Shown here piece after piece: positions 6,724 through 35,282 of a stretch of DNA of 35,925 nt. Numbering within the stretch: the first letter of the stretch is position 1; each line of letters opens with the position of its first letter. This DNA is from Clostridiales bacterium (lineage in GTDB: Bacteria; Bacillota; Clostridia; Christensenellales; DTU072): positions 1 to 35,925 of the forward strand of contig JAAZJD010000108.1 of assembly GCA_012800525.1 (NCBI GenBank), written 5' to 3'. The translations under genes and the position numbers were made by a program. The notes under the pieces were generated by a model, which was not told the DNA's origin, searched no databases, and worked only from the letters and a program-made list of their open reading frames with translations.

Positions 6724-9267
6724 CTATTTTTTATCTTTTTCAAGTTTTTCTTCCATGCGTTTTTTATGTGCTTTTTTCTCATCTGGCTCGTCATACAAGT
6801 TCTTCTTTCCAAGTCTATGATTACGATTCATTGTAAACAATGAAGTAAATAACATCCATGTTCCCTTTCTAGACTCTAAAAACCCTTTAAAACCTTTTCC
6901 TTTAGCATTAAACTTCAACATCAAAGCTTGAAGCATTTTTTTATTGAGTAATCCTTGAGAGAAGTTTGCAGTTACTCTAAGTGGAGTTGACATCGCCATT
7001 TCAGCAGCTATTCTTGAAGCACCAAGGGCAGGATTTTTCTTTTGCTCTATTTCAGCACCTCTATTAATTGCCCATGCGATAAATCTTCCAAATGGTGTAT
7101 GTTTTACATCACTAAACGTATTATCTACAGTAAAAACGTAATCCTTTCCATATTCTCTTGGATATAGCTCTGTCTTGCCAGTTAAAGCCATAAATTCTTC
7201 ATCTGAAATATTTGAAATATCTGCTTTATAATATGAAGGAATTTCTTTAGACCTATCCTTAATCTTATGGTTATCGCCTTTTACTTTTACTGTGTCTTTA
7301 AGCTTAATATCTTGGCTAGATGAACCAACTAAAATTTCAAAATCACCACTTTCAACAGTCCAATCACTAACCTCACAATTCCAAAAAGCAAATGCTCTTT
7401 TATTTAAAGTTACATTAACTTCTTTTTCTTCCCCAGGCTTTAGCCACACTTTATCAAAGCCTTTTAGCTCTTTGTATGGTCTATATGCAGTTGACTTTAC
7501 ATCTCTTACATAAACTTGAGCTATTTCGCCACCATATACTTTGCCAGTATTTTTAATCTTAAAGCTAAGCTTTAACTCTTCTTTATTTATATCAAAATCA
7601 TTACTTGAAAGTTTTAAATCAGAATATTCAAATGTAGTATATGATAGACCAAAACCAAATGGGAATAATACATCTTTTTTAGCAGAATCATAATATCTAT
7701 ATCCTACATATAAACCTTCTCTATATTCTACACATCTTCTATATCCTGGGAAATATGGATAACATGATACATCTTCATCTTTAAATGGGAATGTTTCTGC
7801 AAGTTTAGCACTTGGGTTTACTTTACCCGTGAGAATATCATAAATTGCACCACCTGAACTTTCGCCACCTAAATAGGCTTCTAGTACACCACTTACATTT
7901 TCTAGCCATGGCATTGCAACAGGAGAACCGTTATGTAATATGACAACAACGTTTTTATTAACTTTTGCAACTTCTTCTACTAAAACATTATGTGCAATTG
8001 GTAAATTAATATTTTTTCTATCATATCCTTCACTTTCATATATATCAGTTAACCCAATAAATAGTAATGCGACATCAGTATCTTTTGCTATATTAACAGC
8101 TTCATCAATATATTTTTGATTTACTACAGTTTCATCTTTCCATCCATCAGCATAAACGATATTTAAATCTGTTGCTGCATCTAAAAAGCTTGTTATTTTA
8201 TGTGCCTTGATGTGAGAAGATCCTCCACCTTGAATTCTTGGTGTCTTTGCAAACTGTCCAATAACAGCATATTTTTTATCTTTATTTAATGGTAGTATAT
8301 TGTCTTTATTTTTTAGTAAAACCATTGTTTGAGAAGCCATTTCTCTTGCAAGCTCATGATCTTTATCTCTATCATATGTAGCCTCTACTCTTTCTTCAAT
8401 AGATTTAAAGACTATTCTTAAAATTCTCTCGCAAGCTTTGTCTAAAACCTCTTCATCTAAATCACCACTTTCAACAGCTCTTTGTATCCTAAAGTCATTT
8501 GGTCCGCCGTTTGCTGGCATCTCAAGCTCTAGTCCATTTTTAACACCTTTGACTCTATCGTTTACTGCTCCCCAGTCGGAAACAACATAACCTTTAAATC
8601 CCCATTCATCTCTCAAAACCTGATTGAGTAGCCAATCATTTTCTGCACAAAACTCGCCATTTATCATGTTGTATGCGCACATAATTGTCCATGGGTCTGC
8701 TTCTTTAACAATTTTTTCAAATGCTGGGAAGTATATTTCACGAAGTGTCCTTTCATCAACCTCTGTTGAATTGGTGCTTCTATGCCATTCTTGGTTATTT
8801 GCAGCAAAATGCTTAACACTAACACCAACTCCATTTTTTTGCAAAGCCTTAGTATATTCTGTAGCAAGCTCTCCTGTCAAATATGGATCTTCTGACATAT
8901 ATTCAAAGTTTCGTCCACAAAGAGGAGATCTTTTAATATTTATTGCAGGTCCTAGTAAAACTCCGAGATTTTCTGCTGCCGCCTCTTTTCCTAATGCATC
9001 ACCAAGTTTTGATGCAAGTTTTCTATCAAAAGAAGCAGCAATGCCTACTGAAGTAGGAAAACATGTCGCTACAACAGAATCATTTACGCCAAGCCTATCA
9101 CCTTTTGAATAGTCTTGTTTTCTAAGTCCATGAGGACCATCTGACATCATCATCTTTGGAATTCCTAGTCTCTCAACTGCTTTGGTATTCCAAAAATCAT
9201 GACCAGAACAAAGCGATGCTTTTTCTGCAATTGTCATTTTGCTTATTAGTTCTTTAATTTTTGCCAT
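6724..9267 (-). CDS. GH3 family beta-glucosidase, cytosolic
   Basis: An 847-residue glycoside hydrolase family 3 enzyme, expected to release terminal beta-linked glucose (or xylose) from oligosaccharides. No signal peptide is present, so it acts in the cytosol. The first catalytic domain has DGPHG (44-48), the substrate-binding KHFAANNQE (152-160) and the nucleophile in VVSDWGAV (Asp231). The second alpha/beta domain covers about 310-545 and is followed by the fibronectin-III-like domain beginning near PFGFGLSYTTFEY. About 180 residues follow that domain, ending in a very basic and acidic tail. The start at 9267 is chosen because GTGAGG lies a few bases upstream; the frame is open to an earlier ATG at 9306 that lacks a good site. 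The gene follows the unknown gene at 9327-10346 by 59 bases and may be cotranscribed. Confidence 0.9.
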   Translation of the reverse strand: MAKIKELISKMTIAEKASLCSGHDFWNTKAVERLGIPKMMMSDGPHGLRKQDYSKGDRLGVNDSVVATCFPTSVGIAASFDRKLASKLGDALGKEAAAENLGVLLGPAINIKRSPLCGRNFEYMSEDPYLTGELATEYTKALQKNGVGVSVKHFAANNQEWHRSTNSTEVDERTLREIYFPAFEKIVKEADPWTIMCAYNMINGEFCAENDWLLNQVLRDEWGFKGYVVSDWGAVNDRVKGVKNGLELEMPANGGPNDFRIQRAVESGDLDEEVLDKACERILRIVFKSIEERVEATYDRDKDHELAREMASQTMVLLKNKDNILPLNKDKKYAVIGQFAKTPRIQGGGSSHIKAHKITSFLDAATDLNIVYADGWKDETVVNQKYIDEAVNIAKDTDVALLFIGLTDIYESEGYDRKNINLPIAHNVLVEEVAKVNKNVVVILHNGSPVAMPWLENVSGVLEAYLGGESSGGAIYDILTGKVNPSAKLAETFPFKDEDVSCYPYFPGYRRCVEYREGLYVGYRYYDSAKKDVLFPFGFGLSYTTFEYSDLKLSSNDFDINKEELKLSFKIKNTGKVYGGEIAQVYVRDVKSTAYRPYKELKGFDKVWLKPGEEKEVNVTLNKRAFAFWNCEVSDWTVESGDFEILVGSSSQDIKLKDTVKVKGDNHKIKDRSKEIPSYYKADISNISDEEFMALTGKTELYPREYGKDYVFTVDNTFSDVKHTPFGRFIAWAINRGAEIEQKKNPALGASRIAAEMAMSTPLRVTANFSQGLLNKKMLQALMLKFNAKGKGFKGFLESRKGTWMLFTSLFTMNRNHRLGKKNLYDEPDEKKAHKKRMEEKLEKDKK

Positions 9268-9326
9268 TTTTACCTCACATAAATAGTATTGCTTATTTTT
9301 AGCCATTAGTCTAACAACACTACATA

Positions 9327-20153: not shown

Positions 20154-21311
20154 TCATTTTTTTACTGGATTTTCTTCCTCTTCTTTTATTTTCTTTTTAA
20201 GTTCACTTTCAAACAAAGCTTCATCTAAAGGTATGGACACCTTTTTCCCTGTCCAGCCAGCTAAATGAATTGCATTAGAAAAAGTTAATCCAATCAAACC
20301 TTCTTTGCCTGGAGCTATAAACTTATCGGTTTTACCTAACAAATAGTCTGTGTAATTTTTTATAATCCCTATATGTTGTGGTGGATTTTTAAACATTCTT
20401 AAATAATGCCCTATGCCTCTATATTTATATACTTTGGTTTTAGGTTTGCCCATAAAAACTTTATTGGTTGCATTAAACTCAGGTTCAAATATTTGATTTT
20501 CAGTAAACACAAGTTTACCACCTTCGATTACAATTTTACCGCCATCACCTGTAATTTCTAACCTATTTGTTCCTGGAGCATCATGCGTTGAGGTTATAAA
20601 GACTCCTGTGGCACCATTTTCGAAGGTACACATTGCTGTTACATCATTTTCTACATCTATTTCTCTACCTTTTGTGCTCACTATTGCTTCTACTTCTACA
20701 GGTAATCCTGCAAGCCAAGTAAATAAATCTAATTGATGAGGACATTGGTTAATTAAAACACCGCCACCTTCACCTTTCCATGTCCCACGCCAGCCGCCTT
20801 GATCATAATATGCTTTTGGACGATACCAATTAGTTATTATCCAAACAATTCTTTTTAACTCACCAAGTTTACCACTTTCAATTATTTCTTTTGCTCTTAT
20901 GTATAATGGATTTGTTCTTTGATTGAACATCATTCCAAACAAAAGATCAGGGTGTTTATCTGATTCTTCATTCATTTTCACAACTTGTGATGTATAAACA
21001 CCTGCAGGCTTATCACATAAAACATTAATTCCTGCCTTAAAAGCATCAATTGCTATTGTAGAATGTTCATAGTGGGGAGTTTCAATTAAAACTGCATCAA
21101 TTAATCCACTATTAAACATCTCTTTATAGTCGCTAAATATTTCAACTCCCTTTAGTTTTTCTTTTGCCCTATTCCTTCTGCTTTCATTTACATCACAAAC
21201 AGCTGTAAGTTTTGCACCTTTAATCAAAAAACCAAGTTTTTGAAAAATCATTGAATAAAAACTACCTTGTTTCCCAAACCCTACAATTCCATATCTTACA
21301 ATTTTGGCCAT
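20154..21311 (-). CDS. Gfo/Idh/MocA family oxidoreductase (last operon gene)
   Basis: A 385-residue NAD(P)-dependent sugar dehydrogenase-like protein. The Rossmann loop is GFGKQG (11-16), and the conserved Lys101 lies in CDKPAG, where most relatives have EKP. The catalytic block reads INQCPHQLD with His192 and Asp195. It shares NWYR, QGGWRGT and INQCxHQLD with the paralogue at 22310-23449, so the two arose by duplication. It lies 18 bases after the TIM-barrel isomerase gene. Substrate is unknown; oxidation of a sugar hydroxyl, or its reversal, is inferred from the family and from the uronate operon context. GGAGG upstream supports the start. Confidence 0.88.
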   Translation of the reverse strand: MAKIVRYGIVGFGKQGSFYSMIFQKLGFLIKGAKLTAVCDVNESRRNRAKEKLKGVEIFSDYKEMFNSGLIDAVLIETPHYEHSTIAIDAFKAGINVLCDKPAGVYTSQVVKMNEESDKHPDLLFGMMFNQRTNPLYIRAKEIIESGKLGELKRIVWIITNWYRPKAYYDQGGWRGTWKGEGGGVLINQCPHQLDLFTWLAGLPVEVEAIVSTKGREIDVENDVTAMCTFENGATGVFITSTHDAPGTNRLEITGDGGKIVIEGGKLVFTENQIFEPEFNATNKVFMGKPKTKVYKYRGIGHYLRMFKNPPQHIGIIKNYTDYLLGKTDKFIAPGKEGLIGLTFSNAIHLAGWTGKKVSIPLDEALFESELKKKIKEEEENPVKK

Positions 21312-21329
21312 AGCTAAACCTCCATATAT

Positions 21330-22241
21330 TTACTCTTTTATCATTTCTTCAAGTGTTTTATATTGCCACACGAAAACTTCTTTTCTTGACACACATTTAA
21401 AAAAGCCCAATCCTTTAGCTTTATCTACTAGTCTAAAAGCTTTAAAGTAATTACTCATTATGAATGGCATAAATGGCACGAAATATACTATAGGCTTTAA
21501 CACTGCATATTTCCAAGTGTGTGGCTCTAAAGTCATAAAGCCTTCATAATATCTTTTCTTAAGCTCTTCTATTATATATTGATACTCGCCCTTTCCAACT
21601 CCAAGAGGAACTTCAACCTTATATTCAGAACAATCTTTAATATGATAATACACTGTTATATCTTTTAACATATCAAAAGCTTCTTTGACATTTACATCAC
21701 ATTGCACATAGTTTGAAGAATCAAAAATAAATTCTAGTCCATCATCTTTTAGGTGTTCATATAGCTTTAAAACTCTTGAAGGAACATCCCCAAACACTTT
21801 CTTTTCATTTTCATGTAAAAGTGTGACTCCACTATCTTTTGCAATTTCCAAAAAGCCTTTCATTTTTGTAACAACTTTATCTAAACATGAATCCGGATCT
21901 TCTGAACCATAGAAAAATGAAAATATTCTAATATATTTACATTTTGCTTTTTTTGCTATTCTAATTAAAGTTTCAAGTTGTTTCTTTTGTTTTTCATAAC
22001 CTGCTTCATCATTAATTCCAACCTTTCCTATAGGAGAACCGATAGAAGAAAATTTTATTCCGTTATCAATCATCCTTGGTAAAATAGAAACTTTAAATTC
22101 TTCATATGAGTAGTCTGCAATATTTTTTCCATCCACATTTCTTGGACAAATATATTCGCCTCCTAATTCCTTTGCTAAAGCTATTTGCTTATTAAAATCT
22201 GATGTAACCTCATCATAAAAACCTGAAATTTGAACCTTCAT
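21330..22241 (-). CDS. Sugar phosphate isomerase/epimerase-like TIM-barrel protein
   Basis: A 303-residue protein of the xylose-isomerase-like (AP endonuclease 2) TIM-barrel superfamily. The metal site pattern of the superfamily is visible: Glu144 (LLHENEKK), Asp174 (FIFDSSNY), His200 and Asp203 (YYHIKD) and Glu239 with His241 (LEPH). These bind a divalent metal in epimerases and also in lyase-type relatives. It is flanked by two paralogous oxidoreductases, so an epimerisation, keto-sugar isomerisation or elimination step between two redox steps is likely. GAGGTG upstream supports the start. A 68-base gap before it holds a possible internal promoter. Confidence 0.85.
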   Translation of the reverse strand: MKVQISGFYDEVTSDFNKQIALAKELGGEYICPRNVDGKNIADYSYEEFKVSILPRMIDNGIKFSSIGSPIGKVGINDEAGYEKQKKQLETLIRIAKKAKCKYIRIFSFFYGSEDPDSCLDKVVTKMKGFLEIAKDSGVTLLHENEKKVFGDVPSRVLKLYEHLKDDGLEFIFDSSNYVQCDVNVKEAFDMLKDITVYYHIKDCSEYKVEVPLGVGKGEYQYIIEELKKRYYEGFMTLEPHTWKYAVLKPIVYFVPFMPFIMSNYFKAFRLVDKAKGLGFFKCVSRKEVFVWQYKTLEEMIKE

Positions 22242-22259
22242 AAATTCACCTCACATAAT

Positions 22260-22289
22260 ACTATAATTTAACAATTGAAACGATTACAA
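22260..22289 (-). promoter_or_regulatory. Possible internal promoter with LacI/CcpA-like half site
   Basis: On the minus strand TTGTAA (22284-22289) and TATAGT (22260-22265) are 18 bases apart. The TTGTAATCG half site overlaps the -35 box; the other half, toward 22274, is degenerate, giving an imperfect LacI-family or cre-like operator centred on the CG at 22281-22282. Both are weak predictions. Confidence 0.3.
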
Positions 22290-22309
22290 AACATAATTAT
22301 CATTTTGCA

Positions 22310-23449
22310 TCATTTGCTGTTTACTTTATTTTTCTCTTCTTGACGTTTTTCTTCTAGCGCATTTTCATATTCATTTGCATCAATTGGCAAAAACACTTTT
22401 GCATCTTTCCAAGAAGAAAGATAAATTGCATTAATTAATTCAACACTTTTATGACCTTCTTCAACATTTGCTAGCAACTCGCCTTTATTTTTTATTGCTT
22501 TTGCAAAAGCTTTTATTGTTCTAATTTGTTGGCCTAAAATCAAGTCTCTTAGTTGTCTTATTAATCCATATGAGCTAATTGTCATAAAACTTGGTGACAT
22601 TCCATATCCAAATGTTGTTTCCTTATTAACTTGCTTTTGGCTTTTATGTCTATATACTTTCATAAAGAACTTGCCCATAACGATTCTACCTTTATCTAAA
22701 GCAATCTCCAACCTATTAACACCACTTAACTCATGAGAGGAAGCGGAAAAAGAACAATTATATTCTGGATATTCTAAAATAGCGACTATATCATTTTCAG
22801 TGCAAATATTTCTATCAACTGTCTTAGTTTTAGCAGTAATTGAAGTAGGCATGCCTATCAGCCATTGAAGAATATCAAGCTGATGAACACATTGGTTTAT
22901 TAGAGAACCTCCTCCTTCTTCGCAATATGTGCCACGCCAACCACCTTGTTTATAGTATGCATCTGAGCGATACCAATTTGTTATGATATAATCTGCCCTT
23001 TGTATGCTTCCAAGTTTTCCTGAAGATATTAGCTTTTTGGCTTTTTTATACATTTTATTGCTTCTTTGATTAAAGTTTACACCAACAATAACATCAGGAT
23101 TTGCCTTTGCAACTTCTACAACTTTATCAGCATCAAGTTTTGTAACAGTTAAAGGTTTTTCAATTAAAACATGAACTTTTTGTTCAATACAATACCTTGC
23201 GATTTCTCCATGTGGGTAGTGCTCAGTTGCAATAATTACACCATCCAATTTTTCATTTTCAATCATTTCTTTATAGCAAGAATATTTTTTAGCTTTAGTA
23301 TATTTTTTACTTCTCTCTAAAGCTTTAGATAAAATATCACAAACAGCAACAAGTTTAACTCCTCTTACAAAACCACGAGCTAAATTAAAAGCATGCCTGC
23401 TTCCCATTCTACCAATACCAATAACACCAAATCTTAATTTTTTGTTCAT
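22310..23449 (-). CDS. Gfo/Idh/MocA family oxidoreductase (first of pair)
   Basis: A 379-residue NAD(P)-dependent oxidoreductase. The Rossmann loop is GIGRMG (11-16), the EKP motif with Lys98 is intact, and the catalytic block INQCVHQLD gives His189 and Asp192. Middle regions NWYR and QGGWRGT are shared with the paralogue at 20154-21311. The C-terminal 25 residues are highly charged. It follows kdgK by 7 bases and has only a weak ribosome site, so translational coupling is likely. It is probably the first redox step of the three-gene module; the sugar substrate cannot be read from sequence. Confidence 0.88.
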   Translation of the reverse strand: MNKKLRFGVIGIGRMGSRHAFNLARGFVRGVKLVAVCDILSKALERSKKYTKAKKYSCYKEMIENEKLDGVIIATEHYPHGEIARYCIEQKVHVLIEKPLTVTKLDADKVVEVAKANPDVIVGVNFNQRSNKMYKKAKKLISSGKLGSIQRADYIITNWYRSDAYYKQGGWRGTYCEEGGGSLINQCVHQLDILQWLIGMPTSITAKTKTVDRNICTENDIVAILEYPEYNCSFSASSHELSGVNRLEIALDKGRIVMGKFFMKVYRHKSQKQVNKETTFGYGMSPSFMTISSYGLIRQLRDLILGQQIRTIKAFAKAIKNKGELLANVEEGHKSVELINAIYLSSWKDAKVFLPIDANEYENALEEKRQEEKNKVNSK

Positions 23450-23456
23450 TTTTTAT

Positions 23457-24476
23457 TTATCTTTGTATTCTTCCACTACCATCTGTTTTTATTAAAGTTT
23501 TTACTTCATCTACTGTGGTCAAATTAAAGTCCCCTTCAATGGTTTGTTTTAACGCACTTGCGGCTGCTGCAAATTCTATAACCTCTTGATAATCTTTAAA
23601 CTCATTTAATCCATATATTAAGCCAGCACAAAAACTATCGCCACCACCAACTCTGTCTAGAATATTAATATTATGTGTTTTGGAAAAATATGCTTTATCC
23701 TTAACATATAGCATACCACCCCAGTTATTTAAGCTTGCAGAAATACTTTCACGCAATGATATTGCAACTGCTTCAAAATTGAACTTTTCAACTAATTGTT
23801 TTGCTACATCCACAAATGACTCTCTTTCTATTTTACCTTTAGAAATATCAGCGTTTTTAGCCTTAATTCCAAAAACCTTTTCAGCATCTTCTTCATTTGC
23901 GATTAAAACATCTACATATTGCATAAGTTTTGACATTACTTTTTTAGCTTTTTCAGTTGACCATAACTTTTTTCTATAGTTTAAATCACAGCTAACCTTA
24001 ATGCCTTTTTCTTTAGCTATCTTTAATGCCAAAATCAATATATTGGCAAGATCGTCAGAAAGTGCTGGTGTGATTCCTGTAAAATGAAACCAATTAACAT
24101 TGTCAAAAATTTGATGCCAATTAAAATCCTTTTCTGAAGCCTTAGATATTGAAGAATTTGCCCTATCATATATGACATTACTTGCCCTAACAGACATCCC
24201 CTTTTCTAAATAGTAAATTCCAAGTCTATCTCCACCTTTAGCAATATATGTTGTATTTACACCATGTTTTCTAAGTTCACTAATTGCAGCCTGACCAATA
24301 GCATTATCTGGAACTTTTGTTACAAAGGCTGCATCATATCCAAAAAATGAAAGTGAAACCGCGACATTAGCTTCACCGCCACCAAAGGTTGCTTCTAATG
24401 CAGACTCTTGGAAAAATCTCAAATTTCCAAAAGGTGCTAATCTCAACATTATCTCTCCAAATGTTACAACTTTCAT
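23457..24476 (-). CDS. kdgK: 2-keto-3-deoxygluconate kinase
   Basis: A 339-residue PfkB/ribokinase family sugar kinase that phosphorylates 2-keto-3-deoxygluconate to KDPG. The N-terminal substrate region is GGGEANVAVSL (about 32-42), and the C-terminal ATP/anion-hole motif is RVGGGDSF with catalytic Asp280. Operon position between eda and the oxidoreductases, after uxaC-uxuA-uxuB, makes this substrate very likely over other PfkB substrates. The start has AAGGAG upstream. Confidence 0.9.
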   Translation of the reverse strand: MKVVTFGEIMLRLAPFGNLRFFQESALEATFGGGEANVAVSLSFFGYDAAFVTKVPDNAIGQAAISELRKHGVNTTYIAKGGDRLGIYYLEKGMSVRASNVIYDRANSSISKASEKDFNWHQIFDNVNWFHFTGITPALSDDLANILILALKIAKEKGIKVSCDLNYRKKLWSTEKAKKVMSKLMQYVDVLIANEEDAEKVFGIKAKNADISKGKIERESFVDVAKQLVEKFNFEAVAISLRESISASLNNWGGMLYVKDKAYFSKTHNINILDRVGGGDSFCAGLIYGLNEFKDYQEVIEFAAAASALKQTIEGDFNLTTVDEVKTLIKTDGSGRIQR

Positions 24477-24545
24477 AAATTTTCTCCTTAATTTAAATCC
24501 ACAGTAAAATCTATTTTCACTGAATCAATATTTATTTAATAGTTT

Positions 24546-25142
24546 TTAGCTTTTTAATTCTTTTAAAGCATTTGCTGCTGCTTTTGATATATCGCCTTTC
24601 AAAATCCAAGTGCCCCCAACTGCTATCACAGCATGATGTTTTAAAAATCTTTTAAAATTTTCCTGATTTATTCCTCCAGTAGGAACAAATTTAACTTGTG
24701 GAAACACATTAGAAAATGCATTGATTGTGTCTATTCCACCAAACTCTTGGCATGGGAAGAATTTTAACACACTATATCCTGCTTTATATGCTATCATGAT
24801 TTCTGATGGTGTAATAACTCCTGGAATATATGGAATATTAAAATTATTTGCAACTGCTCCAATTTCTTCTAGATATCCAGGAGAAACTATAAATTTTGCT
24901 CCAGCAGATATTGCATTAGTACATTGCTTTGCATTAATGACTGTTCCTGCACCAATTATCATATTTGGGAAATTTTTAACTGCTAAACTTATTGCTTCTC
25001 TAGCACATTCAGTCCTAAATGTAATTTCCGCTATATTTATCCCACCTTTTTCTAAGGCAGCTAATATATCTAGAATATCCTCAGCTTTTTCTACTTTTAT
25101 TACAGGAATAATTTTATTTTCTTCTAAAAAAGAGTAACTCAT
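24546..25142 (-). CDS. eda: KDPG aldolase
   Basis: A 198-residue class I aldolase that splits 2-keto-3-deoxy-6-phosphogluconate into pyruvate and glyceraldehyde 3-phosphate. The Schiff-base lysine is Lys127 in LKFFPC, and the acid-base glutamate is Glu39 in AEITFRT; GAGTV and PTGGI are the other family marks. Length is normal. It is the last step of the glucuronate route. The 121-base gap before it carries a long palindrome and a motif shared with the araC promoter, so eda and the genes after it may have separate control. Confidence 0.92.
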   Translation of the reverse strand: MSYSFLEENKIIPVIKVEKAEDILDILAALEKGGINIAEITFRTECAREAISLAVKNFPNMIIGAGTVINAKQCTNAISAGAKFIVSPGYLEEIGAVANNFNIPYIPGVITPSEIMIAYKAGYSVLKFFPCQEFGGIDTINAFSNVFPQVKFVPTGGINQENFKRFLKHHAVIAVGGTWILKGDISKAAANALKELKS

Positions 25143-25160
25143 TTTTTTATCTCACATATA

Positions 25161-25197
25161 TGTTGGTTAAATTTAACTAATATATTAGTTAGCAACA
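25161..25197. promoter_or_regulatory. Palindromic operator candidate before eda
   Basis: A perfect 16-bp palindrome, AACTAATATATTAGTT (25175-25190), lies between TGTTG (25161-25165) and CAACA (25193-25197). The right side contains GTTAGCAACA (25188-25197), also found at 28846-28855 next to araC. It sits between uxuB and eda, close to the eda ribosome site. Confidence 0.5.
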
Positions 25198-25263
25198 TTA
25201 TTTAATTTAATAATACGACATTATATATCAATATGACTATACCTTATCATCTCACTTTTCAAG

Positions 25264-26094
25264 CTACACTCCACTAAAAGCATTAAAACCACCATCGATT
25301 GGTAAAACAACTCCAGTGATGAAACTTGCAGCTTTTTCATCTAATAAAAAGTGTGTTGCACCAACTAGTTCATCAATTTCACCAAATCTATCCATAGGTG
25401 TAGAAGCTAATATTTTTTTAGTTCTATCAGTTGGATTTCCATCTTGATCAAACAATAGTCCCCTATTTTGATTAGTTACAAAAAATCCCGGAGCAATGGC
25501 ATTTACTCTTATTCCAACTTTCGAAAAATGAACTGCAAGCCATGCTGTAAAATTACTTACCGCTGCTTTTGCACCACTATATGCTGGGATTTTTGTAAGA
25601 GGAGTAAATGCATTCATAGAAGATATATTTAAAATCGAACATCCCTTTTTGCCAACCATATCTTTTGCAAAAACTTGAGTAGGCAAAAATGTACCAATGA
25701 AATTTAAATCAAAGACAAATTTCACTCCTTCTTCTTTGAGATCAAAAAAGTCTTTTTCTACATCTTTTTCAAAAGCACAGTATTCATTATCTGTTGTGGC
25801 TTTGGGATTATTTCCTCCTGCGCCATTAATTAATATATTGCATTCACCAAGATCTACTTTAATTGCAGCATGAGCATCTTCTATAGAAGTTTTATCTAAA
25901 ACATTTACTTTATATGCCTTTGCAATATATCCATTTGCCACAATTTCATCTGCTACTACTTTAGCTGCATCGACATTTAAATCAAGTAAAGCAATCTTTG
26001 CACCAGTAACTGCAAGTGACTTTGCAAGGGTTGAACAAATAACCCCGCCTGCACCTGTAATAACTACAACTTTTCCTTTTAAATCTAAACTCAT
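25264..26094 (-). CDS. uxuB: D-mannonate oxidoreductase, SDR type
   Basis: A 276-residue short-chain dehydrogenase that reduces D-fructuronate to D-mannonate with NAD(P)H. The cofactor loop is TGAGGVIC (13-20), the form usual for the SDR-type mannonate enzymes of Bacillota. The catalytic set is Asn131, Ser159, Tyr172 and Lys176. The C-terminal PIDGGF motif is present. This is the B. subtilis-like class, unrelated to the long-chain E. coli UxuB. GGAGG precedes the start. It lies between uxuA and eda. Confidence 0.9.
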   Translation of the reverse strand: MSLDLKGKVVVITGAGGVICSTLAKSLAVTGAKIALLDLNVDAAKVVADEIVANGYIAKAYKVNVLDKTSIEDAHAAIKVDLGECNILINGAGGNNPKATTDNEYCAFEKDVEKDFFDLKEEGVKFVFDLNFIGTFLPTQVFAKDMVGKKGCSILNISSMNAFTPLTKIPAYSGAKAAVSNFTAWLAVHFSKVGIRVNAIAPGFFVTNQNRGLLFDQDGNPTDRTKKILASTPMDRFGEIDELVGATHFLLDEKAASFITGVVLPIDGGFNAFSGV

Positions 26095-26200
26095 TTTATA
26101 CCTCCAATCTAAGCTTTAAGTATCTCTATTTTAAACAATTAGATACCTAAACTTCTATTTTAAAATCATCACATATATTATTTATATTGCAAATAACTAT

Positions 26201-27244
26201 CTAACCTTTCTTATGCTCCAAAGCATCCCATATGCCATTTATATAATTTGCTCCAAGAGCTCTATCATACAAACCATATCCAGGTTTTCCAGTTTCACCC
26301 CAAATCATACGTCCATGATCTGGTCTTACATATCCATCAAATTTATTTTTATGTAGCACTTTGACAATACCTACAATATCTAGTGAGCCTGCACTTTGAT
26401 TATGTGATGTTTCTTCAAAGCCATCTTCAACAAATTTAATGTTTCTAATATGCATAAAATGAATTCTTTTTGCTTTTGAATATTTATCTATCATTTTCAC
26501 TAAATCATTTTTTTCTGCAACACCAAGAGAACCTGTACAAAAAGTTAATCCATTTTCTTCTTCATCAACTAGTTTTAAAAATCTATCAAGATTTTTTTCA
26601 TCTGTTATTATTCTTGGTAGTCCAAAAATTGGCCATGGCGGATCATCTGGATGAATAGCCATTTTAACACCCGCTTTTTTTGCAACTGGTATTATAGCCT
26701 TTAAAAAATACTCTAAGTTTGACCATAGTTTTTCTTCATCAACTTTCGAATATTTGTTAAACAATTCTCTTAATTCTTCCTTTTCATAGCTAGAATCCCA
26801 GCCTGGTAAATTCATATCATCGCTCAATGGATTTTTACCTTTAAGTTGTGATTCATAATATACAAGTGATGTTGAACCATCTTCTGCTAACTTATCTAAT
26901 TGTGTTCTTGTCCAATCAAAAACAGGCATGAAGTTATAGCAAATACATTTAACTCCAGCTTTACCTAGTCTTTTTATATTTTCACAATAATTTGCAATAT
27001 ATTTATCTCTTGTTTTAAGTCCTAGCTTTATATCTTCATGTACTGGCACACTTTCAACAACTTCAAACTTTAATCCAACATCTTCCGCCATTTTTTTAAT
27101 TTCATTAATGCTTTCATTAGACCATACTTCGCCAACTTTGACATCATATACAGCACTAACGATGCTATGCATATTAGGAATTTGCCTAATATACCCTATT
27201 TGGACTGGATCGTCTTTTCCATACCATCTAAATGACATTTTCAT
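26201..27244 (-). CDS. uxuA: Mannonate dehydratase
   Basis: A 347-residue metal-dependent dehydratase of the xylose-isomerase-like fold that turns D-mannonate into 2-keto-3-deoxygluconate. Recognisable blocks are [12 protein letters not shown] at the start, [13 protein letters not shown] (about 101-113), [18 protein letters not shown] (about 195-212), the late [14 protein letters not shown] and [18 protein letters not shown] near the end. Length is close to the B. subtilis enzyme. The start codon overlaps the uxaC stop in ATGA, so the two genes are translationally coupled. GAGGTG lies upstream. Confidence 0.95.
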
Positions 27245-28650
27245 ACTACACCTCTCTTCTTATCAAAATATTCTTTTGCATTGTAATAACAAATTTTTTC
27301 TAAAATTTCTACTAACTTTTCATCTGACCCTGCACTGTATTCACCCTTTTCTATCCATGAGCCTATTAAAGAACATAAAATTCTTCTAAAATAATCATGT
27401 CTTGCATATGATGCAAAACTTCTGCTGTCTGTTAACATCCCTACAAAAAGTCCAAGCCCACCAGTTGATGCATTTATTTTTAACTGCTCATAAATTCCAT
27501 CTTTATGATCTAAAAACCACCAAGCGGCTCCAAGTTGCATTTTGCCTCTCTTTCCATTTCCTTGAAAAGAACCAAGTAAAGTTGCTAGAGGATAATATGC
27601 ATTTGGATTTAGGGTAAATATTATTGTTTTTGGTAAACCGCCATTTTGATCTATGTAATCTAGCATATTTCTTGCTTTTTCTATATCTAGAGTGTTTCCT
27701 ATACTATCTCCACCAGCATCTACACCCACTTGGTTATATAATGTTGAACTACAATTTCTCATCGGCCCTACATGAAGTTGCATAACCATGTCGTTTTCAG
27801 CAAAAATTTTAGCTAAACGAGTCACTATGCAAAACATATATTCTTCAGCTTCTTCAGTTGAAATAATTTCGTTATTAATCTTTCTTTTAAAAATACTGTC
27901 TGCTAAATAAAAATCCCCTTTGCCTTTTGGAAAATCTAGAAAAGATAAATCCGCACATAAGCAATTTCTTGCCAAAAAATACTCTATCCTTTTCTTTGTA
28001 GCTTCCATTAGACTATTAAAATCATCAATTGTAATTTCGGTCACTTTCGATAATTTTTCTATATATTCTTTAAAGTCTACATTTTGGATGTTTATAATCT
28101 TGTCTGGTCTAAAACAAGGAAGTACTCTACACTCTAATTTCTCACCTAACAACAAGTCATGATATTTTAAATCATCTAACGGATCATCTGTAGTAATTAA
28201 TGTAGAAACACCAGAAACTTTAAGTAGACTTCTTGGTGAAACTACATTATCTTGCATATATTGTGATGTTTTTTCCCAAATGGCATCAGCATTTTCTTCG
28301 CAAATAGGAATATCTAAATCAAAGTATTTTTTAAGTTCAAGATGCGCAAAATGATATACTGGGTTTCCCATAAAATATGGCAAAGCTTTACAAAAAGCTC
28401 TAAATTTTTCATAATGACTTGCATCACCTGTTACCTTATCTTCACTAATACCAAAAGCACGCATAATTCGCCATTTATAGTGATCACCCAAAAGCCAAAT
28501 CTCAGTTAAATTTTTATACCTTTTATCTTCATATATCTCTTTAGGGTTTAAATGACAATGAAAATCATAAATTGGCAAATCTTTAACTTTTTGATATAGC
28601 TTTTTTGCCATTTCATTTTCTAAAAAAATCTCAGACATAAATTTTTTCAT
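27241..28650 (-). CDS. uxaC: Glucuronate (uronate) isomerase
   Basis: A 469-residue enzyme of the amidohydrolase-like fold that converts D-glucuronate to D-fructuronate (and galacturonate to tagaturonate). The metal motif HCH at 31-33 follows LPIYDF; further family marks are [19 protein letters not shown] and GMLTDSRSF. The start at 28650 is chosen because GGAG lies seven bases upstream; an ATG at 28665 has no such site. It is the first gene of the operon and is divergent from the AraC regulator. No UxaA or UxaB partner is in the window, which points to the glucuronate branch. Confidence 0.95.
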
Positions 28651-28712
28651 CACAATCTCCACCATGTTTTAAAAGTCTTTGTAATAAACATTATATTACT
28701 TATTGCTTAAAT

Positions 28713-28898: not shown

Positions 28899-29759
28899 AT
28901 GAAGTATAGTACTTGGAAAACATCGCAACATATGCTTACAAACACTTTTGAAATAAACCTATATAAAGATAGGCAATTTAGCTCTGTACCTTTACACTCA
29001 CATAATTTCCATGAGTTATATTTGTTTTTAAACGGCAAAGCTATATATACAGTTGAAAATGGTGATTACAAGCTTCAACCTTTCGACCTAATACTCATTC
29101 CAGCTAATAACTTACATAGAGTTGAAATATTAAATTCTTCTATTCCATATGAGCGTGCTGTATTGTGGATAAACCCTAATTATTTGAATTCACTTTCTAC
29201 TCCATATACAAATTTAGCACAAGCTTTTCTAGATCGAGCTGAAACAAAAAATTATTTAGTAAGAGATGTTGAATTTTCAAAATTATTACATCAAAAAATA
29301 ACCACTCTACATAAAAGTAATAACTCTGATACTTTTGGCAGCGATCTTGAAACTCAAATCAATCTACAATCATTACTTTTAGATTTATCAAGATATCTTT
29401 CTACACAATCAAATAGCATAAATCCTCCAATAATAAATCAAACCGTAAATGATGCAATTGAATATATTAATAAAAATATAGATAAACCTCTAACACTTGA
29501 TATGCTCGCAAAAGATCTTTTTATCAGCAAATACTATTTAGCAAGGCTTTTCAAAAAACATACTGGAACTTCTCCATATCAATTTATTATAAAAAAACGC
29601 CTTACATTATCAAAAACCTTACTTGCAAAAGGAATAAGTATAAAAGAAGCTTGCTTTCAAGTAGGTTTTGGTGATTACACACATTATTTTAGAGCTTTTA
29701 AACAAGAATTTGGCATTACACCAAAGCAATATCTCAACTTTTTACAAAACAAAAATTAA
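28899..29759 (+). CDS. AraC family transcriptional regulator of uronate operon
   Basis: A 286-residue regulator. The N-terminal cupin-like sensor (about 20-110) has HSHNFHELYLFLNGKAIY and LILIPANNLHRVE. Two AraC-type helix-turn-helix units follow at about 185-283, with LTLDMLAKDLFISKYYLARLF... in the first and the family signature around the GFGDYTHYFRAFKQEFG segment in the second. It is divergent from uxaC, so control of that operon by a uronate or pathway intermediate is likely. GAGAGAAAG precedes the start. It replaces the GntR- or LacI-type regulators that control uronate genes in E. coli and B. subtilis. Confidence 0.9.
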   Translation: MKYSTWKTSQHMLTNTFEINLYKDRQFSSVPLHSHNFHELYLFLNGKAIYTVENGDYKLQPFDLILIPANNLHRVEILNSSIPYERAVLWINPNYLNSLSTPYTNLAQAFLDRAETKNYLVRDVEFSKLLHQKITTLHKSNNSDTFGSDLETQINLQSLLLDLSRYLSTQSNSINPPIINQTVNDAIEYINKNIDKPLTLDMLAKDLFISKYYLARLFKKHTGTSPYQFIIKKRLTLSKTLLAKGISIKEACFQVGFGDYTHYFRAFKQEFGITPKQYLNFLQNKN

Positions 29760-31175: not shown

Positions 31176-31210
31176 TATTGTAGCTAGTTTAAAATATTTT
31201 GGAGGATCGA

Positions 31211-32950
31211 ATGAAATTAAATGTAAAAAACACCATTAAAGTCGGCTTTGCCTTTGCAATAGTTATGACCTTCTGGGGTGCATATGACTTTGTTATCCCA
31301 CTACTTTTAGAAAATGCTTTTGGGCTTTCCCATACAATGAGAGGATTAATCATGGGACTTGATAATTTACTCTCTTTGTTTATGCTTCCACTGTTTGGCA
31401 AATTATCCGACAAAACAAACACAAAATGGGGTAGAAGAACTCCATATATTTTCATAGGAACAATTATATCTTGCGTTTTAATGATTTTTGTCCCAATTTC
31501 TGCAAATAGAGCTTTAAAAGATGGTATGGCATTAAGAGAACAAATCACTCAAACTCATGTTGCAGGCTATTCATACAAAACTTTAGATGGAAAGCATGAA
31601 TTTAAAAACCAGACTGAAATCTATGAATTTTTATATGAAAAAGGAAAAGAAAATTCAGACTATGCTGATCATGATTATATGGAAAAATCAGGCATCAAAA
31701 CAAAAGAGCATTATCTAAGAATTGCTACAAATCCATTTACAAACTTTAAAGATGCTGAAGACCTAACAGGAACTCCAAATGTTGATAAAAAAGGAAATCC
31801 TGCTATTTCAACAAACTACAAAAATTTTGTTCAAGCGGGAATTAATAACTTTGCAAGCAATGAAGTTGGTGTTTCTGCAAAAACAAATCATGTAGCATCC
31901 CTTGTAATATATATGATTATACTATTTTTAGTCCTAGTGGCAATGGCTACATTTAGATCACCCGCAGTTGCTTTAATGCCAGATGTCACTCCTAAACCAC
32001 TACGAAGCCAAGCTAATGCTATTATCAATTTAGCAGGTGGAATTGGTGGAGCTATTTCTTTCCTTATTTACACCATTACTCTAATGATAAATCCTACAGG
32101 CTTTATTGCTATATTTGTTGCAGTAGCTTGTGCAATGGCTTTACTATTAGTAGGCTTTATGCTTTTAGTAAATGAGAAAAAACTACTCAAAGAATGTGAA
32201 GAAGTTTGTGCAGAATATGGAATTTCAAACGATGACACTGACGAAGAGCTTGTTAAAGCAGATGGAACGCTAGTGTCTGAAGTAGCGGCAGATCCTGCTG
32301 AATTAAAAAGAGCTAAAATGATTTCATTTTTCTTAATTCTAGCTTCAATATTTATGTGGTTTATGGGATATAATGCTGTAGGCTCGACACTGTCAATTTT
32401 CTTAACTAAAACTTTATTAGTTTCACCGGGATGGGCCTCTATAGTTTCTGGTATAAGCATGGGCATATCTGCAATCGCATTTATTCCTGTAGGAATGCTT
32501 GCTGTAAAGATTGGTAGAAGAAAATCCATCATATTAGGTTTTGGACTTGCCGTACTTTCATTTTTACTAATATTCTTATTTGCTGCAATGCCTGGAAAAG
32601 CAAGCGTATATCTCTTTACAGTATTCTATCTAATAGCTGGATTTGGTTTAATAATTGCAAATGTAAATACCTTCCCAATGGTAGTTGAGCTTTCCTCTGC
32701 AAGTGATGTTGGAAAATACACTGGGTTATACTACACCGCAACTATGAGTGCGCAAGCAATAACACCATTTATCGCAGGTATATTTATGGATAAGTATGGT
32801 AGTAGATATCTATTCCTCTACTCACTATGTTGTGTCATATTAGCAATAGTATTGATGTTCTTCGTAAAACACGGTGATTCAAAACCACTACCTAAAAAGA
32901 AAAAAAGTGAAGAAGAAGCCGTTGAAAAAGTAGAAGCAGAAGCTATATAA
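31211..32950 (+). CDS. MFS transporter, SLC45/GPH-like, with large extracytosolic insertion
   Basis: A 579-residue major facilitator protein. The typical loop motif GKLSDKTNTKWGRR (about 63-76) and the NWGR-like WGRRTPYI sign resemble SLC45-like sugar-proton transporters. Between the third and fourth hydrophobic segments there are about 130 hydrophilic residues (roughly 98-226) that ordinary members lack; by topology they face outside. A cytosolic loop rich in Glu and Asp separates the two halves, and the C-terminus is Lys/Glu-rich. The start at 31211 has TTGGAGGATCGA immediately upstream. Its place next to the uronate locus makes sugar or uronide uptake an attractive but unproved role, since the operon has no transporter. 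Confidence 0.82.
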   Translation: MKLNVKNTIKVGFAFAIVMTFWGAYDFVIPLLLENAFGLSHTMRGLIMGLDNLLSLFMLPLFGKLSDKTNTKWGRRTPYIFIGTIISCVLMIFVPISANRALKDGMALREQITQTHVAGYSYKTLDGKHEFKNQTEIYEFLYEKGKENSDYADHDYMEKSGIKTKEHYLRIATNPFTNFKDAEDLTGTPNVDKKGNPAISTNYKNFVQAGINNFASNEVGVSAKTNHVASLVIYMIILFLVLVAMATFRSPAVALMPDVTPKPLRSQANAIINLAGGIGGAISFLIYTITLMINPTGFIAIFVAVACAMALLLVGFMLLVNEKKLLKECEEVCAEYGISNDDTDEELVKADGTLVSEVAADPAELKRAKMISFFLILASIFMWFMGYNAVGSTLSIFLTKTLLVSPGWASIVSGISMGISAIAFIPVGMLAVKIGRRKSIILGFGLAVLSFLLIFLFAAMPGKASVYLFTVFYLIAGFGLIIANVNTFPMVVELSSASDVGKYTGLYYTATMSAQAITPFIAGIFMDKYGSRYLFLYSLCCVILAIVLMFFVKHGDSKPLPKKKKSEEEAVEKVEAEAI

Positions 32951-34088: not shown

Positions 34089-34109
34089 AAAGTTACAAAA
34101 TTAAATATA

Positions 34110-34181
34110 TGCTAGGGGTGGCCAAGTGGCCTGAGATTACACCCTCGAACTTGATTGCGGTAATGCGCACGAAAGAAAGCA
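34110..34181 (+). ncRNA. TPP riboswitch aptamer (THI element)
   Basis: The conserved parts of the thiamine pyrophosphate aptamer are in order: GGGGTG, a short GCC/GGC hairpin, CTGAGA (34131-34136), ACCC pairing back to GGGT, GAAC, and TGCG-GTAATG-CGCA (the pyrophosphate-sensing arm), then a GAAAG strand. P1 is short (GCT/AGC). It binds TPP and controls the downstream thiT gene. Confidence 0.93.
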
Positions 34182-34193
34182 AAAAATGCTTTG

Positions 34194-34222
34194 AACCTAA
34201 AGATAATCTCTTTAGGTTTTTT
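34194..34222 (+). terminator. Riboswitch expression platform terminator
   Basis: A perfect 10-bp stem, arms at 34194-34203 and 34209-34218, with a 5-base loop and a T run follows the aptamer by 13 bases and precedes the thiT start. A competing hairpin, AAAGC (34176-34180) with GCTTT (34188-34192), overlaps the aptamer's 3' strand. TPP is expected to favour termination. Confidence 0.85.
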
Positions 34223-34244
34223 ACTCTCTAGCAAAGGAGAATCT

Positions 34245-35282
34245 ATGTTAAAACCATTTCAAGACACTTCTATTTCAAGTATTAATGATGCTATAAAAGC
34301 TTCTTTACAGTATGCATTAGATGTTGCAGGATATTTTGCTCTTGCCATCACAATAGCGCTAGCAATTGTATTAATCATCATTGGTTTTTATATTAAAAAC
34401 AAAAAGCCATATTATATTGAATCTTTTAAAAAGGTAACTTTAGGCATAACAATTGGATACTCAATTGCGGTTATATCTACACTTGGCTCTTTAGTTTTAG
34501 CTAAAACTCTTGGCAGTGGTAGAAAGTTTTTTGAGTTTGATGGCATACAAACATGGGGTCTTGCTTCATCAACAGGTGGTAAAGCTCAACTATATATTTA
34601 TACTTTTGTTTTAATTATAGCTTTAGTCTTAATAGTGCTTCTTTTAGGAAGAAAAAAGAAAATAAACAAAACAAATTCCGTAGTATATGGAGCAGTTTTA
34701 ATTGCTCTTAGTTTTGCCCTATCTTATGTCAAATTTTTCTCTTTGCCACAGGGTGGTTCAATAACTTTTGCAAGCCTATTGCCTCTGATGCTTTATTCAT
34801 ATATGTTTGGAATAAGGCGCGGAATTTTAGCTGGTTTTATTTATGGAATATTGCAATTTTTCCAAGCACCTTATTTTGTCCATCCCATGCAATTTCTCTT
34901 AGATTATCCTATTGCTTTTGCTGCAATTGGAATAACAGGAATATTCAATGAATATAAAGTATTTAAAGGAAAATTAACAATTTTAAACTTTATCATTGGT
35001 GCATTAATTAGTGTCATTATAAGATATCTTTCAAGTGTTGTTGCTGGCATTTTTGTCTGGGGGTCATATGTAGATGAGAACTTAAATAGTGAAGGTAATA
35101 TAATTCTAGGGCCTGTTGCTTGGAGCTTTTTATATAACTCTTTTGTTTTTGCTGATTTGGCTGTTACACTAGTTGCTGGTGCATTTCTCCTAAGCAATAA
35201 ATCATTCCTTGCTATTATGGATAAAACTACAGCAAATCTTAATGTAAATGAACCGCTAGAAGAAGATAACAAAAATGAATAA
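34245..35282 (+). CDS. thiT: ThiT-like thiamine transporter with N-terminal membrane extension
   Basis: A 345-residue membrane protein. The C-terminal half (about 147-320) is ThiT, the thiamine-binding S component of an ECF transporter, with SITFASLLPLMLYSYMFG, RRGILAGFIYG and FVHPMQFLLDYPIAF (211-225) and the late VWGSY thiamine-pocket motif. Normal ThiT is about 180-190 residues. Here about 145 residues precede it, with three hydrophobic segments at about 27-49, 64-88 and 116-135. The start at 34245 has AAAGGAG upstream; an earlier start would lie inside the riboswitch terminator. Control is by the TPP riboswitch. The ECF energising module is not in the window, as usual for shared group II systems. 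Confidence 0.9.
   Translation: MLKPFQDTSISSINDAIKASLQYALDVAGYFALAITIALAIVLIIIGFYIKNKKPYYIESFKKVTLGITIGYSIAVISTLGSLVLAKTLGSGRKFFEFDGIQTWGLASSTGGKAQLYIYTFVLIIALVLIVLLLGRKKKINKTNSVVYGAVLIALSFALSYVKFFSLPQGGSITFASLLPLMLYSYMFGIRRGILAGFIYGILQFFQAPYFVHPMQFLLDYPIAFAAIGITGIFNEYKVFKGKLTILNFIIGALISVIIRYLSSVVAGIFVWGSYVDENLNSEGNIILGPVAWSFLYNSFVFADLAVTLVAGAFLLSNKSFLAIMDKTTANLNVNEPLEEDNKNE

Follow-up and report, generated by a model that had tools for sequence, protein, structure and literature searches.

The closest described relatives of the system considered here cleave or remodel glycosides through 3-keto sugars. The levoglucosan pathway LgdA-LgdB1-LgdB2-LgdC of Bacillus smithii is a four-enzyme chemistry that employs two triosephosphate isomerase (TIM) barrels and a reductase of the Gfo/Idh/MocA (Gfo) family: LgdB1 (30 kDa) performs elimination and LgdB2 (36 kDa) performs hydration with some elimination activity (PMC7676230). 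The same four-enzyme chemistry was proposed for the AtOGE/AtHYD pathway of Agrobacterium tumefaciens (PDB 8bvk and 8ro4), and that study described the metal-binding residues of AtOGE together with its catalytic His134 (PMC10628242). The chemistry of the 3-keto-glucoside 4-epimerase YcjR is cited in PMC11543891. Linkage of the lyase gene to the dehydrogenase gene is usual in the glucuronide branch of the 3-keto-glycoside pathway, but is not strictly required. The stretch of DNA analyzed here, termed the window, comprises positions 1-35925 (35,925 nucleotides) of contig JAAZJD010000108.1 from a Clostridiales bacterium (assembly GCA_012800525.1). It includes a three-gene module which encodes the Gfo proteins GFO1 and GFO2 and, between them, a xylose-isomerase-like TIM barrel denoted TIM. 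The module is probably the window-linked part of a pathway that deglycosylates glucuronides through 3-keto sugars instead of by direct hydrolysis.

The best PDB match of GFO1 was 8TDI (E 2.7e-99), which is deposited as 'P2B11 Glucuronide-3-dehydrogenase', whereas the second-best match reached only 4e-32. A tree of 61 proteins placed GFO1 with 8TDI in one clade (support 98/98), and GFO1 carries K101 and H192. Moreover, 8TDI is 68-80% identical to the GFO1 proteins of TIM-GFO1-GFOc-TIMb clusters in Lachnospiraceae, Oscillospiraceae and related Clostridia, where GFOc and TIMb denote a second Gfo protein and a second TIM barrel, respectively. We take 8TDI to derive, probably, from the work of Nasseri et al. 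(Nature 2024, 631:199, doi 10.1038/s41586-024-07574-y), as its accession lies near those of the AL1/BT1 lyases, which were released in June 2024. GFO1 is predicted to be a glucuronide 3-dehydrogenase, with a substrate that is short of certain because identity to 8TDI is only ~43%. GFO2 also matched 8TDI best (E 2.4e-67) and carries K98 and H189, and it falls in a separate sister clade of 16 members with support of 96/92. The GFOc proteins are more distant from GFO1 and 8TDI than is the GFO2 clade. The role predicted for GFO2 is that of a 3-keto-glucuronate reductase or a second 3-dehydrogenase.

A preliminary description of the locus, made from the sequence alone, had noted that two paralogous Gfo proteins with NWYR, QGGWRGT and INQCxHQLD motifs flank the barrel. 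This arrangement was confirmed: the paralogs are 37% identical and both possess the three motifs. These motifs extend beyond the two paralogs, as RPxxYYDxxGWRGTW...NQxxHxxD also is found in 3q2i/3q2k, and WxRP, WRG and INQSVHTLD are present in the GFOc proteins. We presume that 3q2i/3q2k are WlbA-type 3-dehydrogenases of UDP-N-acetylglucosaminuronic acid (UDP-GlcNAcA), which would suit a uronic acid C3 dehydrogenase. The contrast between the lysine motifs CDKPAG and IEKPL, which had been viewed as a sign that the two enzymes differ in substrate or direction, does not on its own reveal direction, given the EKPAG motif of 8TDI.

The metal-site residues E144, D174, H200 and E239 of TIM are invariant in alignments of 40 and 45 sequences, in agreement with the intact site that was perceived initially. 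A search of the PDB with the TIM sequence alone by phmmer gave no match so that an alignment profile was required, and AtHYD (8ro4) was not among the matches of this profile at E values up to 1. The structure model of TIM (predicted local distance difference test score, pLDDT, 97.2) has epimerase/isomerase-type barrels as its nearest folds, and AtHYD is near-tied with the epimerase-type barrels at Z 25.6 versus 27.6 for the top match. The lyases AL1, BT1 and AtOGE were not among the best 50 fold matches, which is not counted as a difference. In an ungapped motif match, E144-N145-E146 of TIM takes the place of His132 and His134 in AtOGE and of a Glu and a His in the C-glycoside lyases, where the Glu acts as metal ligand at the E144 position (AtOGE/PuCGE residues: PMC10628242); both E144 and E146 are invariant in the 45 sequences. 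Thus, two residues past the first metal ligand TIM has E146 and not the catalytic His, although in an hhalign comparison E144 pairs with H135 and N145 with N136 of TIMb and a gap then follows. By this motif comparison, the His needed for elimination appears to be absent from TIM, which argues against this barrel as the one that breaks the bond. In size and residues, TIM resembles LgdB2 and TIMb resembles LgdB1. Within the proposed pathway a hydratase therefore is somewhat favored over a cleaving enzyme as the role of TIM, in view of this likeness and of the missing His; bifunctional lyase/hydratase and 4-epimerase roles are possible.

No second TIM barrel is linked to the module in the window. 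The lyase-type candidate TIMb is encoded instead on contig C13 of the same genome (15276-16043, + strand), whereas the module is on C73. This protein is 74% identical to the TIMb encoded directly after GFO1 at loci L087 and L057 and 62-68% identical to those of L082 and L042; TIMb is linked to the module at L057, L081, L082 and L087. Profile matches of TIMb included AtOGE (8bvk; 6.7e-48), AL1 (2.3e-41) and BT1 (9.6e-38), and these three 3-keto-glycoside lyases were among the top folds for the TIMb model (pLDDT 95.6). The invariant residues H135, H137, D166, H192 and E233 of TIMb correspond to H132, H134, D163, H189 and E233 of AtOGE. By sequence, fold and residues, therefore, the genome encodes a lyase-type TIM barrel with a metal site and catalytic His, and TIMb most likely is the bond-breaking 3-keto-glycoside lyase. 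Inspection of translations placed the TIMb gene between gcvT/gcvH-like and gcvPA-like genes in an apparent glycine cleavage operon, as also at L163 and L194. This address within gcv-like genes therefore offers no hint of function.

In the proposed pathway, GFO1 with NAD+ would oxidize C3 of an imported glucuronide. Beta-elimination, for which the unlinked TIMb is the most likely enzyme, would then break the C1-O bond and yield the aglycone and 2-hydroxy-3-keto-glucuronal. Hydration of the latter by TIM would produce 3-keto-glucuronate, which GFO2, or GFO1 acting in reverse, would reduce with NADH. As oxidation with NAD+ would be followed by reduction with NADH, the cycle would be redox-neutral. 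Free glucuronate then would enter the uxaC-uxuA-uxuB-kdgK-eda route. The genes with their relatives, conserved residues, linkage and co-occurrence were observed directly, whereas the catalytic steps, the substrate, the division of roles between the two barrels and the part played by GFO2 all are predictions from sequences and structure models.

A contig scan with the single window TIM sequence found no relative, whereas a scan with a TIM alignment provided 80 named genome loci that were chosen for window TIM. GFO1 adjoins TIM at 70 of these loci, a second Gfo protein is present at 58, TIMb at 42, and all four components at 38. A uronate catabolism gene lies within the fetched stretch at 37 loci, and TIM with GFO1 recurs beside uronate genes across Bacillota. 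Four-gene TIM-Gfo-Gfo-TIM clusters occur in gut Lachnospiraceae and Oscillospiraceae, where uxaC often is a neighbor, and in related Clostridia, and also in Bacillaceae and staphylococci. In 40 genomes from the family of the window, 31 with TIM and nine without, tests that ignore shared ancestry revealed uxaC in 28/31 TIM-bearing genomes versus 2/9 of the others (p = 2e-4) and TIMb in 22/31 versus 0/9; the comparison within genus g2, which is exempt from this limit but small, showed uxaC in 4/4 genomes with TIM versus 0/6 without. Many clusters in the family consist of TIM and GFO1 only, beside uxuA-uxuB, with a GFO2-clade protein then encoded elsewhere in the genome. The conserved unit is TIM with GFO1, and the second Gfo protein varies by lineage. 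Thus, of the triad that was expected to recur beside uxaC in other genomes, the TIM-GFO1 pair does accompany uronate genes but the second Gfo gene often is elsewhere. Together with 8TDI as the best relative, the recurrence of the pair beside uronate genes supports the original suggestion of a 3-keto route that acts on a glucuronide and feeds glucuronate into the operon.

A further protein of ~640 residues, weakly GDE_C/trehalase-like (L084:12175-14106, + strand), is encoded after one of the two Gfo genes, GFO1 or GFO2, in numerous relatives and is beside one of them at L061, L063 and L182-L185. It was found in 21/31 TIM-bearing family genomes and in 0/9 without TIM, and is absent from the genome under study. 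In Candidatus Gemmiger stercoravium, two more GFO1-like proteins are encoded side by side (L120:4252-6707, - strand) near a TIM-GFO1-TIMb cluster.

The suggestion of a route without a classical glucuronidase fits this genome, in which neither GH67 nor a glycoside hydrolase family 2 (GH2) protein at the cut-off of the beta-glucuronidase model NF007538 was found, but not all relatives. The cut-off was reached in 0/40 family genomes. A 597-residue GH2-like protein encoded in a sialic acid locus on contig C78 is unlikely to be a glucuronidase, as it scored 61 bits against the 544-bit cut-off. By contrast, TIM, Gfo, Gfo, TIM, major facilitator superfamily (MFS) and uidA genes are side by side on plasmid p2 of Cetobacterium somerae (L033, 10001-17155), where UidA passes the NF007538 cut-off, and a UidA-like GH2 protein adjoins the module in a Spirochaetia metagenome-assembled genome. 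In these two organisms, linkages or aglycones outside the reach of UidA presumably are the targets of the module. An unexpected beta-glucuronidase, reportedly of family GH3, is said to have been found in one study. A hydrolytic route via GH3 stays conceivable because GH3 enzymes can be glucuronidases and the window includes a GH3 gene (6724-9306).

Several of these observations weigh against the 3-keto glucuronide pathway. The glucuronide as substrate of 8TDI is known here from the deposited molecule name alone, no clear TIMb was found in 9/31 TIM-bearing family genomes, and the nearest sequence and fold relatives of TIM include ketose 3-epimerases, with AtHYD merely tied. The UidA-like proteins mean that the module is not simply a glucuronidase replacement everywhere, and as a uronate gene is nearby at only 37 of the 80 loci the substrates of some relatives may be other sugars. 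Alternatively, the module could process free uronic acids or a different uronide, such as a C-glycoside, a galacturonide or one that is unsaturated, and would then merely be co-regulated with glucuronate catabolism. The absence of a uronate gene from the fetched stretch at over half of the loci, the modest identity between GFO1 and 8TDI, and the single GH88/GH105-like match in the genome, which is weak alone and exceeds the cut-off only with its neighbors in frame, are consistent with such a substrate. Nevertheless, this proposal is improbable as a complete glucuronate isomerase operon adjoins the module, uxaC co-occurs with TIM, and 8TDI is the best solved relative of both Gfo proteins. An origin in an inositol (iolG/iolE type) or other unrelated Gfo and TIM barrel pathway, which would have undermined the initial proposal, can be set aside with near certainty: among NCBIfam models both Gfo proteins score highest with TIGR04380 (iolG), but reach just 92 and 108 bits versus a cut-off of 355, and sequence inspection identified a separate iolG-iolE-iolD-iolB-like locus on contig C98 of the same genome.

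Other alternatives concern the chemistry of the barrel. TIM itself may be a lyase or bifunctional lyase/hydratase, such that the three genes suffice and TIMb serves another pathway. This idea is a variant inside the same pathway, with a likelihood that overlaps that of the preferred explanation, and although doubtful it is the most credible of the competitors. It gains from the partial bifunctionality of LgdB2 in elimination and hydration (PMC7676230), from the nine TIM-bearing genomes in which TIMb is unclear and from the Glu ligand of C-glycoside lyases (PMC10628242), and loses from the invariant E146 that the motif match aligns with the catalytic His of AtOGE/PuCGE and from a TIMb that is encoded in this genome and cluster-linked in relatives. 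A dispersed form of the pathway is unlikely but worth stating: the dehydrogenase and TIM of this clostridial family would have remained with the operon, whereas the genes for the lyase and the second Gfo protein would have moved or been lost, and where TIMb is unclear either a window-type TIM would perform both elimination and hydration or the undescribed ~640-residue protein would join in cleavage. A further scheme, also raised in the preliminary description, is unlikely but a serious competitor: one uronide would be converted into another without cleavage, with GFO1 forming a 3-keto uronide, TIM inverting C4 (or C2) and GFO2 reducing the product. That scheme would fit a single barrel flanked by two Gfo enzymes, an epimerase-type E-D-H-E site without the lyase His, and the presence of YcjR (6wn6) and ketose 3-epimerases among the fold matches of TIM. 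However, YcjR (Z 23.7) is tied with many other TIM barrels and no closer than these, TIM and GFO1 are accompanied by a second Gfo and a lyase-type barrel at 38 of the 80 loci, TIMb tracks TIM within the family, and many family clusters have TIM and GFO1 without a second Gfo.

The module lies directly after the glucuronate genes in a single minus-strand row, uxaC-uxuA-uxuB-eda-kdgK-GFO2-TIM-GFO1, that runs from 28665 down to 20154. Gaps at the module are 7-68 nucleotides and the spacing across the whole row is -4 to 121 nucleotides. The operon assigned in the preliminary description thus stands in strand and spacing, with the correction that 'uxuB' encodes a D-mannonate oxidoreductase of the short-chain dehydrogenase/reductase (SDR) type which differs from classical UxuB. 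Terminator-like sites were at chance level (four found versus 3.4 expected) and promoter-like matches were no more frequent than in shuffled sequence.

Features of the module, the adjoining glucuronate genes and nearby genes in the window.
Feature	Coordinates	Strand	Details
GFO1, predicted NAD-dependent glucuronide 3-dehydrogenase	20154..21311	-	385 residues; Pfam GFO_IDH_MocA N- and C-terminal domains
TIM, xylose-isomerase-like TIM barrel, predicted hydratase of 3-keto-glucuronal intermediate	21330..22241	-	303 residues; AP_endonuc_2, PF01261
GFO2, predicted 3-keto-glucuronate reductase or second 3-dehydrogenase	22310..23449	-	379 residues; Pfam GFO_IDH_MocA N- and C-terminal domains
KdgK-type PfkB sugar kinase	23457..24476	-	PF00294; best NCBIfam model NF041633 (kinase half), 554 bits, below the 700-bit cut-off of this model of a fusion protein
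2-keto-3-deoxy-6-phosphogluconate (KDPG) aldolase, eda	24546..25142	-	TIGR01182 above cut-off
SDR-type D-mannonate oxidoreductase, uxuB step	25264..26094	-	NF006132, 428 bits versus cut-off 281
Mannonate dehydratase, uxuA	26201..27244	-	NF003027 and TIGR00695 above cut-off
Glucuronate isomerase, uxaC	27241..28665	-	NF002794 above cut-off
AraC-type regulator, divergent from uxaC, candidate operon regulator	28899..29759	+	PF12833 and PF02311
MFS/glycoside-pentoside-hexuronide (GPH)-type sugar transporter, candidate glucuronide importer	31199..32950	+	PF13347 and PF07690

AraC-type genes recur adjoining the module in other bacteria. At locus L191 of family genome G001 (C82:9000-28000), a transporter 51% identical to that of the window directly adjoins GFO1, and a GH3 gene whose product is 45% identical to the window GH3 protein is close to GFO1. 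These neighbors hint that the GH3 protein and the transporter of the window serve the same substrates. Elsewhere in the window, a thiamine pyrophosphate (TPP) riboswitch at 34104-34194 (+ strand; 62 bits, gathering threshold 54.3) is directly 5' of a ThiT-like gene (34191-35282), the listed TTG start of which may be too far upstream.

Glucuronides are one of the main forms in which drugs, hormones and toxins are excreted by mammals, and beta-glucuronidases usually are held responsible for their re-activation in the gut. Within Bacillota the module is widespread and, if the 3-keto glucuronide pathway is correct, would cleave glucuronides undetected by surveys of classical beta-glucuronidase genes. 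As the lyase candidate is unlinked in some genomes, searches that demand the whole cluster would miss it. The chemistry outlined initially appears largely right in its general course, although only part of the initial interpretation is supported. It is mostly not new, since C3 oxidation of a glucuronide matches the solved and named relative 8TDI and so is mostly known within the 3-keto-glycoside pathway family. The additions made here are a correction of roles, a lyase candidate that is unlinked, a second Gfo protein that is specific to the lineage, and the co-occurrence with uxaC.

Among known systems, DgpA/DgpBC, which cleaves the C-glycoside puerarin, likewise couples 3-oxidation by a Gfo protein to a metal-dependent TIM barrel lyase. 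It is not the closest analog that it was first thought to be: D3dgpA, a DgpA, did not oxidize a glucuronide (PMC11239390), the DgpBC-type lyase has the catalytic His that TIM lacks, and no gene for the small beta-subunit of CGE/DgpBC was found at 20154-28665, where all minus-strand open reading frames of >=100 codons are assigned otherwise. The YcjS-YcjR-YcjQ set of E. coli, which acts on D-gulosides and D-glucosides, also combines dehydrogenase, TIM barrel and dehydrogenase on 3-keto glycosides, but performs epimerization and not cleavage and has neither a lyase partner nor a uronate context. The levoglucosan pathway matches the proposal in its two dehydrogenases, two TIM barrels and succession of oxidation, elimination, hydration and reduction. 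It differs in the sugar and in that the fourth gene is unlinked in the genome studied here; with the LgdA model, which has a cut-off of 650 bits, GFO1 and GFO2 reach 72 bits. In A. tumefaciens, AtOGE shares metal and catalytic residues with TIMb and AtHYD is among the tied top folds of TIM, whereas the first oxidation is by GlycDH, described as a flavoenzyme and not a Gfo protein, and glucosides were studied (PMC10628242). Clusters of the 8TDI type carry GFOc and a linked lyase-type TIM barrel, whereas the window lineage has GFO2 and no linked lyase-type barrel. Nevertheless, GFO1 and 8TDI agree in their Lys and His motifs and in NWYRP, and some close relatives of 8TDI likewise adjoin uronate genes.

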